A DNA stretch of 64,000 nt, taken from Prolixibacteraceae bacterium (GTDB lineage Bacteria; Bacteroidota; Bacteroidia; Bacteroidales; Prolixibacteraceae). This document shows positions 3,410 through 27,773 of this stretch, one piece after another. The first letter of the stretch is position 1, and each line of letters begins with the position of its first letter. The stretch covers positions 117,209 through 181,208 of the forward strand of contig JAIOZY010000002.1 of the NCBI GenBank assembly GCA_021740385.1, read 5' to 3'. The translations under genes and the position numbers were made by a program. A model generated the notes under the pieces. The model made no database searches. It had not been told where the DNA came from and saw nothing but the letters and a program-made list of their open reading frames with translations.

Positions 3410-4717
3410 TTAATCAAGGGTATCGTCGATAATTTTCACGTTTTCGGAAAGGAAAATATCAACCGGGTAAACCGAAGGGCCCCATCCATCATCAATAATT
3501 ATTTCCGTTGCTTCTTTAACGGCGTACCAAACCAGGCTGCTGCAAATAAAACTTTCGGGAACCGTGTATTTCGAATAAAACGCTTCGGCAGCATTGCAAT
3601 ACGGCACGCCAATGTACTTTGATGTTTCCGTTAGAATAGCTTCGTTATCGGCATCGGTCATGATTTTTTTCCAGGCTGTCAGCCCGTTGTTTTCATCATA
3701 TACCGGTTCCCATTTTACATCGCAAACCTGGCAAACAAAAGCCAGCCCGTGTTTGTACAGCCATGCACGCCCAAGCTGTTCAAAGCTGGTATCGTATTTA
3801 ACGCCCGATCCGATCGAGAAAGAGGCATCGCTTGTAATCGTTTCCGGCAGCTCGTTGGCATTTTTTGTAAAAACGGCAACATGGCCTACATCGTACCAGT
3901 GTTTGTGGGGGTAGAAAACAATGGGCGAGCGGGTATTCCAGCCGCCTGGCAATGCCAGCATAAACCGGCCTTTTTTTATCGAAGGTCTTATCCGGTCGAC
4001 AAAGCTTTGGGCCGAAAGTTGCGGTGGTGACCCCTGTATCATTGAAAAGGAGAGGTTGTAATTCGAAACAACCGTTTCCCAAAAACGATCATCGGTATAT
4101 TCTTCGTCATCTTCACCGCCCCCTTCTGACCGGAAGATGGTTCCCGCTGCGTTTTCAGGTTGCCGGGCTGAATGCAGGGCTTCCATGTCGGCCATCACTT
4201 TCAGAAAAGGGTCTTCGGCTACCCCGGCCGATTTCAGGTTTTCATACTTTCCCGACAAAGCACTGTTTCGTATTTCAAACAAAACCAACGAATTCCCCGA
4301 GGGGTCTTTGCGGAATTTACGCGATAATCCGGCGGCTTCAATTTTTTTCCAGCTTTGCAGGAAAACGGTTAACGCTTTTTCATCCAAATCGAAAAGCGAA
4401 CAGGTCTTCCCGTTTTTGTCGACTATTTTCAATGCATTCATTTTTTGAAGGATCGGGTTGTGGGTGAGGGGGGTTTTCAGCTTGTCGCCTTTTGTAAGGG
4501 CCGGGTGTTTGACATACCATTTGGCGGCTATCGAGAGGTTTTCGTAATATTCGGCAATTTCCGGAAAGGTATTTGAATCGTCAATTTCATCGGGGTGAAT
4601 TATTACCGTATCGGCAAGCAGCGGGGTGTAGTCAACGGGCAATATGTCATCGTTGGTGCACGATGCTAAAAAAGAAACGGTTAATATGAAAACAAGTGGC
4701 CTCAACCTTTTATTCAT
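3410..4717 (-). CDS. YiiX-like permuted NlpC/P60 (papain-like) lipoprotein
   Basis: A 435-residue lipoprotein; the signal peptide ends F-L-A-S-C (Cys20). The C-terminal half looks like a circularly permuted papain-fold hydrolase of the YiiX/YebB type: the catalytic His comes first (His279 in V-G-H-V-A-V-F) and the Cys later (Cys392 in F-I-C-S-S-L-V-W). Proteins of this group are predicted amidases or peptidases acting on cell-wall or lipid substrates; the substrate here cannot be read from sequence. The N-terminal 250 residues are not recognised. The gene sits between a phosphoesterase gene and tsaB on the same strand. Confidence 0.75.
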   Translation of the reverse strand: MNKRLRPLVFILTVSFLASCTNDDILPVDYTPLLADTVIIHPDEIDDSNTFPEIAEYYENLSIAAKWYVKHPALTKGDKLKTPLTHNPILQKMNALKIVDKNGKTCSLFDLDEKALTVFLQSWKKIEAAGLSRKFRKDPSGNSLVLFEIRNSALSGKYENLKSAGVAEDPFLKVMADMEALHSARQPENAAGTIFRSEGGGEDDEEYTDDRFWETVVSNYNLSFSMIQGSPPQLSAQSFVDRIRPSIKKGRFMLALPGGWNTRSPIVFYPHKHWYDVGHVAVFTKNANELPETITSDASFSIGSGVKYDTSFEQLGRAWLYKHGLAFVCQVCDVKWEPVYDENNGLTAWKKIMTDADNEAILTETSKYIGVPYCNAAEAFYSKYTVPESFICSSLVWYAVKEATEIIIDDGWGPSVYPVDIFLSENVKIIDDTLD

Positions 4718-25343: not shown

Positions 25344-25553
25344 GGCTAAATCCTCCTTATTTTTAAGTTTAACATTTTAAATTTCTAATTGTTTTTTTTC
25401 AAAAGAAATGCCAATGTTTAAATGCGGTAATTATGTCATTTTTCCGATATTTGGTCGGTCTTTTTGTCGTTGTTTATCAATAAGTTATGACAATTTTGCA
25501 GTTTTTTTATTTTTCTCTCTTATTCCTTTAATAAAAATATTTCCCGTTTTTAT

Positions 25554-25586
25554 TTTGAAAGAATCAAATTTATTCATCTATATTTG
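25554..25586 (+). promoter_or_regulatory. Promoter of the tyrA leader transcript
   Basis: TTTG (25,554-25,557) and TATATTTG (25,579-25,586) are 21 bases apart and fit the Bacteroidota -33/-7 consensus. Transcription from here would start just before the leader peptide ATG at 25,610. The remaining bases 25,344-25,553 are AT-rich and hold nothing else I can name. Confidence 0.65.
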
Positions 25587-25609
25587 TAGCGTTAATAATT
25601 ACAGATGCG

Positions 25610-25672
25610 ATGAATACTATAAGCAACACTTTTTTTTACTTTTATTACGGATCCATTGACGGAATCGTGTAA
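25610..25672 (+). CDS. Phe/Tyr-rich leader peptide of the tyrA operon
   Basis: A 20-codon frame encodes M-N-T-I-S-N-T, then F-F-Y-F-Y-Y at codons 8-13, then G-S-I-D-G-I-V and a TAA stop. Six consecutive aromatic codons in a tiny frame directly before prephenate dehydrogenase are the hallmark of a ribosome-mediated attenuator. The promoter is just upstream and a terminator just downstream. The peptide itself is not expected to have a function; ribosome pausing on the Phe and Tyr codons would be the sensor. Confidence 0.85.
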   Translation: MNTISNTFFYFYYGSIDGIV

Positions 25673-25736
25673 ATGTGTGTTGCAAGAAGTAAAAGATACA
25701 GTTTATAGGGTTCCGGAAACGGAGCCCTTTTTTTTT
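25660..25736 (+). promoter_or_regulatory. Aromatic amino acid attenuator (antiterminator and terminator)
   Basis: Terminator: GGGTTCCG (25,708-25,715), a GAAA loop and CGGAGCCC (25,720-25,727), then nine T residues (25,728-25,736), ending 11 bases before the tyrA ATG. Antiterminator: CGGAATC (25,660-25,666), inside the last codons of the leader peptide, can pair over all seven positions with GGTTCCG (25,709-25,715), which is the 5' arm of the terminator. A ribosome that finishes the leader would cover the antiterminator and allow termination. One stalled on the aromatic codons would leave it free and permit read-through. Confidence 0.82.
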
Positions 25737-25747
25737 AAATACTATTT

Positions 25748-26647
25748 ATGATTGTTACAATATTGGGATTGGGATTAATGGGTGGCTCAATGGCAAAAGA
25801 CATCCGCAAAAAAAAGTTTGCAACTGAAATAGTCGGCATTGATTCAAACCCGTTACATGCACAAAAAGCCATTGAACTTGGCTTGGTTGACCGGTGTGAA
25901 GATTTTGAGACCGGCATAAAAACTGCCGATATGGTAATTGTTGCCATTCCGGTTGATAAAATTGCTGAAATGATGCCAGCTGTGCTTGGTTTAATCAACC
26001 CATCGGCCACGGTTACCGATGTAGGGTCGACAAAAGGCACGATAGCTTCAGCCGTTGAGGATCATCCCATGAGGGGAAATTATGTAGCAGCACACCCCAT
26101 GTCGGGTACTGAAAATTCGGGCCCCGGTGCAGCCATCGAAGGCTTGTTTGAAAACAAAATATGCATTGTTTGCGATCACGAAAAAAGCCGTCCCCAACAC
26201 CTTGCCCTGGTCGAGAAAATGTTTCATGCCATTGGCATGGACATCGCCTATATGACTTCCGATGAACAAGATCACAGCACGGCACACGTCTCGCACCTGC
26301 CTCACGTTACGGCTTTTGCGCTGGCCAATGCCGTACTTGAAAGCAACAACCGTAAAATTATTTTCGAACTGGCCAGCGGGGGTTTCAGGTCGACAGCCCG
26401 CCTGGCAAAAAGTTCGCCCGAAATGTGGGGGCCTATTTTCAGGCAAAACCGTCAATACGTTGTCGAATCGATTGACCAATATATAAAACACCTGGAAGAA
26501 TTCAGGGACAGCATTCAAAACAACGATCCGGAAAAGATGAACAAGCTGATGAACAATGCAAACCGCATTCGGGAAATACTCAATGGCGAAAACAAGGAAC
26601 TCATTATGAAAAAACAAACAACAACGAAATTATATCCAAAACAATAA
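25748..26647 (+). CDS. tyrA: Prephenate dehydrogenase
   Basis: A 299-residue NAD(P)-dependent enzyme of the TyrA family. The Rossmann motif is G-L-G-L-M-G-G-S-M (residues 7-15). The catalytic region shows A-H-P-M-S-G-T-E-N-S-G and D-E-Q-D-H-S-T-A-H-V-S-H-L-P-H, both typical. It converts prephenate to 4-hydroxyphenylpyruvate for tyrosine. The C-terminal M-K-K-Q-T-T-T-K tail looks like run-on sequence. It is preceded by the attenuator and followed 28 bases later by the DAHP synthase-chorismate mutase gene; the pair forms the regulated operon. Confidence 0.93.
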   Translation: MIVTILGLGLMGGSMAKDIRKKKFATEIVGIDSNPLHAQKAIELGLVDRCEDFETGIKTADMVIVAIPVDKIAEMMPAVLGLINPSATVTDVGSTKGTIASAVEDHPMRGNYVAAHPMSGTENSGPGAAIEGLFENKICIVCDHEKSRPQHLALVEKMFHAIGMDIAYMTSDEQDHSTAHVSHLPHVTAFALANAVLESNNRKIIFELASGGFRSTARLAKSSPEMWGPIFRQNRQYVVESIDQYIKHLEEFRDSIQNNDPEKMNKLMNNANRIREILNGENKELIMKKQTTTKLYPKQ

Positions 26648-26675: not shown

Positions 26676-27773
26676 ATGACTTTTCAACTTGACATTTTAC
26701 CTGTTAAAAGCTGGTTGCCAAATATCGACAACCCCTTGCTGGTTGCAGGTCCCTGCAGCCTCGAAAGCGAAGAACAAACCCTGGCCACTGCCCGTGAGCT
26801 TGTAAAAGACAAACGCGTTTTTGTATTCCGTGGCGGTGTATGGAAACCCCGCACCCGGCCGGGATCGTTTGAAGGGGTAGGAGCGGTTGGCCTCGAGTGG
26901 ATGAAACGTGTAAAAGAAGAAACCGGGTTGCCCGTTGCAACCGAAGTAGCCAACGCGTACCATACCGAAGCATGCCTCAAGGCCGGAATTGACGTGCTGT
27001 GGGTTGGTGCCCGCTCAACCGGTAGCCCTTTTGTAGTGCAGGAAATTGCCGATGTTCTTAAAGGAACCGATTCGGTAGTGATGGTGAAAAATCCCATGAA
27101 CCCCGACCTTTCGCTCTGGATGGGCGCCCTTGAACGCCTCAACAAGGTTGGTATTAAAAAACTGGTAGGTATACACCGTGGATTTTCGCCTTACCAGGAA
27201 ACAAAGTACCGGAACTACCCCGGCTGGAAAACGTACATCGAATTGAGGCGATCGATGCCCAACCTGCCCATCATTTGCGACCCCAGCCACATTGCAGGCA
27301 AACGGGAATTCCTGTACGACATTTCCCAGAAAGCATTCGATATGGGCTTCGACGGGCTGATTGTGGAATCGCACATCGACCCGTCAAAAGCGCTAAGCGA
27401 TAAAGAGCAGCAACTTACACCCCCCGACCTGAAAACACTGCTCGATAAACTAATTATCCGCAAACACCATGTAGCCAATTCCGAATATGAATCGAAACTT
27501 GATATGCTGCGCAGCCGGATAGATACCCTTGATGCTGAATTGATTGAAATTTTATCGGCACGGACCGAAATTGTCAACCAAATTGCGTTATACAAAAAGA
27601 CAAATAACGTGATGGCGCTTCAGATTGACCGCTGGACAAAAATGATGAACGATCGCGTAAACCTGAGCTCGAAACTGAACCTGGACCCGGTCTTTATAAA
27701 AATTCTTTTTCAGTTGATCCATGAAGATTCGGTAAGGCAACAAACCGAGCTGATTGATAAAGAAGAAATGTAG
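26676..27773 (+). CDS. Bifunctional DAHP synthase-chorismate mutase
   Basis: A 365-residue fusion. Residues 1-265 are a KDO8P/AroG-type DAHP synthase (A-G-P-C-S-L-E-S, F-R-G-G-V-W-K-P-R-T-R-P, D-P-S-H-I-A-G-K-R), which makes the first shikimate-pathway intermediate. Residues about 275-360 are an AroQ-type chorismate mutase (L-R-S-R-I-D-T-L-D-A-E-L-I). The fusion places entry and branch-point steps in one protein, as is common in Bacteroidota. With tyrA and the attenuator it couples pathway entry and the tyrosine branch to Phe/Tyr supply. A strong terminator follows. Confidence 0.95.
   Translation: MTFQLDILPVKSWLPNIDNPLLVAGPCSLESEEQTLATARELVKDKRVFVFRGGVWKPRTRPGSFEGVGAVGLEWMKRVKEETGLPVATEVANAYHTEACLKAGIDVLWVGARSTGSPFVVQEIADVLKGTDSVVMVKNPMNPDLSLWMGALERLNKVGIKKLVGIHRGFSPYQETKYRNYPGWKTYIELRRSMPNLPIICDPSHIAGKREFLYDISQKAFDMGFDGLIVESHIDPSKALSDKEQQLTPPDLKTLLDKLIIRKHHVANSEYESKLDMLRSRIDTLDAELIEILSARTEIVNQIALYKKTNNVMALQIDRWTKMMNDRVNLSSKLNLDPVFIKILFQLIHEDSVRQQTELIDKEEM

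Follow-up and report, generated by a model that had tools for sequence, protein, structure and literature searches.

The window, by which we mean the whole stretch of 64,000 nucleotides of Prolixibacteraceae DNA under analysis, carries a tyrA gene followed, after a gap of 28 nt, by a gene for a DAHP synthase-chorismate mutase fusion (table 1). Directly 5' of tyrA, entirely within positions 25553-25736, lie all the parts of the attenuator considered here: a promoter-like box, a short leader ORF with six consecutive aromatic codons (and, by direct reading, without any Trp codon) and a set of alternative RNA pairings that ends in a terminator. This terminator folds with -16.4 kcal/mol; its core, GGGTTCCG-GAAA-CGGAGCCC, spans 25708-25727, and its eight base pairs become nine when A25707-T25728 is counted. 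Both the 20-codon leader with its F-F-Y-F-Y-Y run and the 8-bp, GNRA-capped terminator with nine T residues are thus present as the original prediction had read them. When the sequence 25550-25747 was subjected to 20,000 mononucleotide shuffles, an ORF of 10-40 codons containing six consecutive aromatic codons arose once and a comparable terminator twice; the two together never did. A DNA search found the tyrA-type element in a single copy in its own genome. We also observed a mini-ORF reading ATG CGA TGA at window positions 25605-25613, which ends within the leader start (ATGCGATGA) and has no obvious conservation in the aligned relatives.

Table 1. Features of the tyrA leader region and of the genes downstream, in window coordinates.
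Feature	Position	Strand	Basis or remark
Possible -33 box, TTTTG	25553-25557	+	Sequence reading
-7 promoter box, TATATTTG (Bacteroidota type TAnnTTTG)	25579-25586	+	Sequence reading
Leader ORF, 20 codons, MNTISNTFFYFYYGSIDGIV, stop TAA	25610-25672	+	Direct reading
Six consecutive aromatic codons (F-F-Y-F-Y-Y); predicted sensor	25631-25648	+	Direct reading
Segment 1, 5' arm of predicted 1:2 hairpin, TACGGATCC	25646-25654	+	-6.5 kcal/mol; RNAalifold consensus helix; pair counts
Segment 2 as antiterminator 5' arm, CGGAATC, within final leader codons	25660-25666	+	Pairs with 25709-25715 (GGTTCCG)
Segment 2 as 3' arm of 1:2 hairpin, GGAATCGTG	25661-25669	+	Folding, RNAalifold, pair counts
Antiterminator inner helix, from the leader stop codon	25668-25681 with 25693-25707	+	Folding
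Segment 3, terminator 5' arm	25707-25715	+	25709-25715 doubles as antiterminator 3' arm
GAAA loop, segment 4 and T run	25716-25736	+	3' arm 25720-25728; nine T, 25728-25736
tyrA, prephenate dehydrogenase, predicted controlled gene	25748-26647	+	Pfam PDH_N 132 bits, PDH_C 88 bits
DAHP synthase-chorismate mutase fusion, second gene	26676-27773	+	Pfam DAHP_synth_1 130 bits, CM_2 64 bits

The promoter consensus of Bacteroidota consists of TAnnTTTG at -7 and TTG at -33. Of 120 elements from the family, 111 have a box of the TAnnTTTG type 10-60 nt 5' of the leader ATG, mostly at a distance of 26-31 nt; control windows placed farther upstream contain it in only 1 of 119 and 5 of 117 cases. Conversely, a TTG at fitting distance (TTG N18-22 TAnnTTTG) is found in only 18 of 121 elements, for which reason we rejected a conserved -33 box. 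The promoter claimed originally is therefore retained for its -7 box, whereas its -33 part is present in the window without being conserved. Transcription would begin about 20 nt before the leader.

The RNA downstream can adopt alternative pairings, since the 5' arm of the terminator is shared with the 3' arm of an antiterminator; the two structures are predicted to exclude each other through this common arm, and the antiterminator to be masked by a ribosome standing at the leader stop codon. The antiterminator had been described as a helix of 7 bases. Its two arms are those originally named, but its length is not: an inner helix prolongs the stem and brings the complete, two-part structure to -19.3 kcal/mol (z -6.1 in the window), so that the version of mere 7 bp was rejected. 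Among 51 of the 121 elements the antiterminator has a median z of -3.6, with values below -1.5 in 47.

The conservation of the element was evaluated in the family Prolixibacteraceae, where tyrA is present in 125 of 140 genomes, the own one included; the closest named tyrA sequences are those of Prolixibacteraceae metagenome genomes (69-71% identity), with 65-66% identity for Prolixibacter. We used 122 tyrA upstream regions, leaving out three genomes with partial matches only (G007, G084 and G119). A leader rich in aromatic codons precedes tyrA in 121 of these regions, that of the window included, and the sole exception (G013) is a region cut by a contig end, in which the tail of such a leader is still visible. 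The automatic choice of leader was replaced by the evident one in a single genome (G094), and the leader of another (G134) is degenerate. A terminator follows the leader in all 121 elements, 23-43 nt past the stop codon and, in 107 of them, within the narrower range of 28-34 nt. In several relatives (G001, G011, G012, G017, G021, G026 and others) tyrA lies farther from the terminator, at about 120-270 nt, and in G012 and G021 additional G+C-rich inverted repeats contribute to this wider gap.

For the pairing counts we aligned 40 elements out of the 120 distinct ones; these sequences are related by descent, so that the counts are not independent. The terminator helix is paired in 95.4% of cases and shows changes on both sides in 10 of its 11 pairs. 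For the antiterminator helix, the arm of which was chosen in the relatives as the best-scoring duplex after the aromatic run, 94.3% of the cells are paired, against 15-64% when the arms are slid along each other. Its cells changed on both sides number 14, compared with 4.5 in shuffles, with the caveat that the number of two-sided pairs was equalled in 117 of 500 shuffles and that two slid versions give 14 and 16 such cells. In 3.5% of trials, shuffled leaders match the mean duplex score of the real antiterminators; exchanging the arms among genomes lowers the score from 16.6 to 14.8. Leader codons and pairing arms, the conservation of which in relatives had been proposed as a check of the original prediction, are therefore both conserved, and together with the Pfam domains of the two genes they uphold its central claim, that of a Phe/Tyr leader attenuator before tyrA and DAHP synthase-chorismate mutase.

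The point in which our results depart from the original prediction is the proposed difference from the classical four-segment design. RNAalifold, applied to the 40 aligned elements, returned unprompted a hairpin between the codons just past the aromatic run and the antiterminator arm, that is, a 1:2 hairpin, which in the window is predicted to form with a probability of 0.91 as long as segment 3 has not been transcribed and no ribosome is on the RNA, and to be lost when the ribosomal A site is on any of the last three aromatic codons. In the alignment, 85.3% of the cells of this helix are paired, versus 25-65% when slid, and its covariation score was equalled in just 1 of 500 shuffles. In the 78 genomes with standard spacing, one particular pair of the helix reads C-G 41 times, T-A 33 times and T-G twice, and is broken twice, the T-A form accounting for 28 of 30 genomes in genus g5 and for all 5 across genera g10, g16 and g22. 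On these grounds (the RNAalifold helix, the pairing counts relative to slid versions and the probability computed for the window) we rejected a non-classical, three-segment design, in which no working 1:2 hairpin would exist and the ribosome would just mask or free the antiterminator arm. The C-G/T-A exchange and the folding energy of the hairpin in the window speak in the same direction. We nevertheless regard such an arrangement as unlikely rather than negligible, given that the 1:2 helix is short and weak in stability (mean z of -0.46 over 51 elements), that swapping its arms between genera costs little (the mean falls merely from 5.95 to 5.68 pairs of 7) and that some covariation measures fail to beat their controls: the number of two-sided pairs was equalled in 26 of 500 shuffles, and the 17 two-sided cells are surpassed by two slid versions with 18 and 20. 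Moreover, masking of segment 2 by a terminating ribosome suffices for the switch in silico. The presence of 1:2, 2:3 and 3:4 pairings, in other words of the classical plan, is thus moderately supported, the 1:2 pairing being the least secure of the three. An arm 2 placed inside the final leader codons, as found here, is also a property of classical attenuators.

Considering these features together, the element is very probably a classical four-segment attenuator of the ribosome-mediated type, acting on transcription. Its leader would be translated, and a shortage of Phe-tRNA or Tyr-tRNA would stall the ribosome on the Phe and Tyr codons, where it would cover segment 1; segment 2 could then pair with segment 3 while segment 4 is still to be transcribed, allowing read-through into tyrA and the DAHP synthase gene. 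With charged tRNA available, the ribosome would proceed to the stop codon and cover segment 2, leaving segments 3 and 4 to form the terminator, and transcription would end before tyrA. If no ribosome were present, the 1:2 hairpin would form first and favor termination.

The geometry of the elements fits such a mechanism. Beyond the codon in its A site, a ribosome covers about 12 nucleotides. In 107 of the 121 elements the antiterminator arm lies 13-17 nt downstream of the first base of the last aromatic codon, and most of the remaining 14 have an extra aromatic codon past the main run or a longer arm. We then simulated co-transcriptional folding by considering the ribosome-free part of the RNA made up to, but excluding, segment 4. 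Under these settings the probability of the antiterminator exceeds 0.5 in 113 of 121 elements when the A site is on the last aromatic codon and is 0 at the stop codon in all 121, because the arm then lies under the modeled ribosome. In the window, the computed probability is 0.997 with Tyr13 in the A site, 0.71 with Gly14, 0.21 with Ser15 and 0 from Ile16 onward. With a footprint of 13 nt, 112 of 121 elements (108 with a footprint of 11 nt, 110 with one of 15 nt) permit the antiterminator up to a codon 0-2 positions past the last aromatic one and no farther, so that in the simulation the point at which antitermination is switched off matches the expected position of the ribosome edge in those 112.

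When the whole element is folded at equilibrium, moving the ribosome from the last aromatic codon to the stop codon produces no such switch; a clean one is obtained in only 1 of 121 elements, and the equilibrium calculation thus failed to prove the switching. The mean probability of the terminator is 0.90 with the ribosome at the last aromatic codon, 0.93 at the stop codon and 0.93 with the ribosome absent. In the window, the antiterminator is favored in the presence of segment 4 with the A site on codons 6-11 (probability of 0.53-0.77). Since equilibrium favors the terminator in all three states, the model rests mostly on the timing of folding during transcription, a dependence that classical attenuators share. 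In ribosome-free RNA with segment 3 made and segment 4 still missing, the predicted probability of the antiterminator is 0.84 for the window and 0.54 on average, values which speak against termination by an untranslated leader.

The composition of the leaders provides further information on what is sensed. Comparing pairs of leaders that have the same length, we found 14779 of the 16636 aromatic positions (89%) to stay aromatic, while F, Y and W interchange freely within the run; W occurs within or 5' of the run in 83 of the 121 leaders of the family. The differences among codon positions in these leaders show no simple signature of protein selection, because the F/Y exchange sits at position 2. 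Leaders preceding tyrA contain on average 3.6 F and 3.8 Y (n = 121), and those preceding pheA contain 6.3 F and 2.4 Y in other Bacteroidales (n = 10, picked by hand with omission of tandem pairs and near-duplicates), 5.0 F and 3.7 Y in Bacteroidia outside the order (n = 18) and 4.0 F and 0.7 Y in the own family (n = 6). We rejected the view that leaders before pheA encode Phe only, as this holds for few of them and those of the Bacteroidia class average 3.7 Tyr. In one case (L228, about 1503-1640) a leader with YYYY and without F, MKNLNNTYYYYPILTRRIGQ, is followed by a terminator and by a gene with the Biopterin_H domain, hence a biopterin-dependent aromatic hydroxylase resembling phenylalanine hydroxylase, the kind of enzyme that converts Phe into Tyr. 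The codon content of the leader thus follows the nature of the downstream gene. Because F, Y and, elsewhere in the family, W swap freely in the run, the tyrA leader is likely to sense aromatic amino acids jointly, which would suit an operon that also makes their common precursor.

These properties also bear on a simpler explanation, according to which the sequence would be a constitutive terminator or a small-RNA gene, with an unused leader product and either a fixed level of read-through or a short RNA as its output. The terminator is indeed a strong structure, and over the 121 elements it prevails at equilibrium in each of the three states compared. Against this explanation stand the aromatic codons in 121 of 122 upstream regions, positions that exchange F, Y and W yet mostly remain aromatic, a codon content that tracks the downstream gene and the near-fixed spacing between the run and the antiterminator; we deem it very improbable. 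Even less probable, to the point of being hardly credible, is a metabolite-binding riboswitch or a tRNA-binding T-box with the ORF as a by-product, despite the conserved 5' RNA ahead of amino-acid genes that it would have in common with the element. No Rfam family reaches its gathering score within the window, neither riboswitches nor T-boxes are among the 12 weaker matches to 25540-25760 (E of 10 or lower), the best of which is Phe_leader, and what is conserved is a set of codons and alternating arms, not an aptamer-like core.

The attenuator reading is instead in line with this best match. Phe_leader (RF01859) represents the attenuator of the enterobacterial pheL-pheA system. It aligns with the window element over its full length (1-125) at 37.8 bits and an E value of 2.8e-5, short of the 55 bits set as the gathering score. 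A larger search gives an E value of 0.011, with only 3 of 20 submitted loci matching at an E value of 0.05 or lower, while a pheA leader from another member of Bacteroidales (L209) reaches 45 bits. Shared with Phe_leader are the run of Phe codons, the alternating hairpins, the U-run terminator and a downstream gene of the Phe/Tyr branch. The window leader differs in mixing Phe with Tyr, in preceding tyrA and DAHP synthase, in the sequence of its arms and in belonging to Bacteroidota; it would work in a similar way, but by the Rfam rule it is not a member of that family. In the trp attenuator of E. coli, which likewise has 1:2, 2:3 and 3:4 pairings, a stalled ribosome covers segment 1 and a terminating one segment 2. 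The segment plan is therefore the same as that of the window element, whereas the amino acid, the sequence and the taxon are different.

Within Bacteroidota, the nearest catalogued comparison is Bacteroid-trp (RF01692), a leader-peptide RNA with Trp codons and a different sequence, which is not among the matches of the window element (25540-25760, E of 10 or lower). The own genome has one (L237, G000:C27:154-285, minus strand) scoring 50.8 bits, with the leader MTTRVLNIWWWHILNFQSGS; closely behind its terminator lies part of a group II intron (RF02001), truncated where the contig ends. Bacteroidetes candidates are reportedly mentioned by Vitreschak et al. in 2004. Bacteroid-trp is listed in PMC2864571, and strong clues for leader-peptide attenuation have been presented for amino-acid operons of Flavobacterium psychrophilum (PMC9723704). 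The latter also belongs to Bacteroidota and has structured 5' leaders with a short peptide before such operons, although the accessible part of that text names no operon, layout or comparative test. Leader-like short ORFs have additionally been noted in B. thetaiotaomicron (PMC7366714, in its accessible part). A figure legend in PMC6429828 describes two candidate uORFs with F and Y codons before shikimate-pathway genes, which resemble the window leader in being short, F/Y-encoding, located before aromatic-pathway genes and predicted to be regulatory; they differ in coming from a study of five other bacterial genomes, with no case from Bacteroidota in the available text. In 2010, the authors of PMC2965389 wrote, in the portion available, that to their knowledge no leader-peptide system had been shown outside Proteobacteria and Actinobacteria. 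In the accessible portions of this literature we found no printed description of a tyrA or pheA element of this kind in Bacteroidota. The original remark that no Bacteroidota example of this layout is known has to be qualified, in view of Bacteroid-trp and of what can be seen of PMC9723704.

Related elements extend beyond tyrA. The own genome contains a second attenuator-like leader, MAQLLGFLFFAFRLKLFPAE, before pheA and with a terminator. This locus (L193, G000:C18, about 3603-3725) also has an inverted repeat, ATTTGGTTAT with ATAACCAAAT, which flanks the leader ORF and includes the start codon; by eye, a repeat of this type is shorter in G033, present in G116 and broken in G117. Leaders before pheA are uncommon in the own family, passing the stricter filter in 3 and the looser one in 6 of 34 regions (the 30 best-scoring loci plus 4 chosen ones), with a doubtful TTG-started ORF (L179) counted under both. 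A further pheA leader, MAQVLGYLFAAFIT in G116, was missed by the filter and recognized by eye.

Among 393 genomes of the order, a covariance model designated R1 finds matches in 28; 5 of these belong to the family, and the other 23 make up its matches in the 388 genomes of the order beyond the family. One of these matches (L205) was rejected as false, since by eye it lies inside an ilvD-like coding region, and the other 22 genomes show a leader with a terminator. Two of the loci (L220 and L221) are at contig ends without a visible gene; the remaining ones precede genes which, by their N-terminal sequence, are pheA-like or aminotransferase-like, as confirmed with Pfam for L204, L214 and L225. 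In five loci (L214, L215, L222, L223 and L224) we noted a tandem pair of aromatic leaders, each with its own terminator, before a pheA-like or aminotransferase-like gene. Across the phylum, R1 matches 7 of 395 genomes including the own one (6 of 394 others). Under its strict filters the model finds few genomes beyond the family, and it thus understates the spread of the element.

A direct inspection of pheA upstream regions gave a broader picture. Of 118 genomes of the phylum, 102 have pheA, and we examined all 24 from the class outside the order together with 16 of the 77 from outside the class, the latter serving as the control for the leader filter in place of shuffles. An aromatic leader with a terminator precedes pheA in 18 of the 24 Bacteroidia genomes versus 1 of the 16 genomes from outside the class. 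Ten of the 24 belong to one family (f124), and one of the 16 regions (L306) is only 352 bases long.

Taken together, we predict that the tyrA element is a real and conserved leader-peptide attenuator of the classical type, its spread through Bacteroidia adding to its interest. On balance it also appears probable that an uncatalogued family of aromatic attenuators constitutes the main control of Phe and Tyr synthesis across Bacteroidia. This family would be associated with pheA in most lineages, would have moved to the tyrA-DAHP synthase operon in Prolixibacteraceae, would form tandem pairs in some other Bacteroidales and would guard phenylalanine hydroxylase, with a Tyr-only leader, in one genome or more, while the leader of the DAHP synthase operon would pool Phe, Tyr and often Trp as a joint sensor.

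Such a system would reveal how aromatic amino acids are controlled in a large class of environmental and gut bacteria, for which the accessible literature offers little beyond Bacteroid-trp and passing remarks. The alignment and the covariance model could found a new RNA family. Moreover, the switch requires a ribosome close behind RNA polymerase and would thus provide a natural test of transcription-translation coupling in Bacteroidota; if the proposed control is true and based on timing, transcription and translation would have to be tightly coupled in Bacteroidia.
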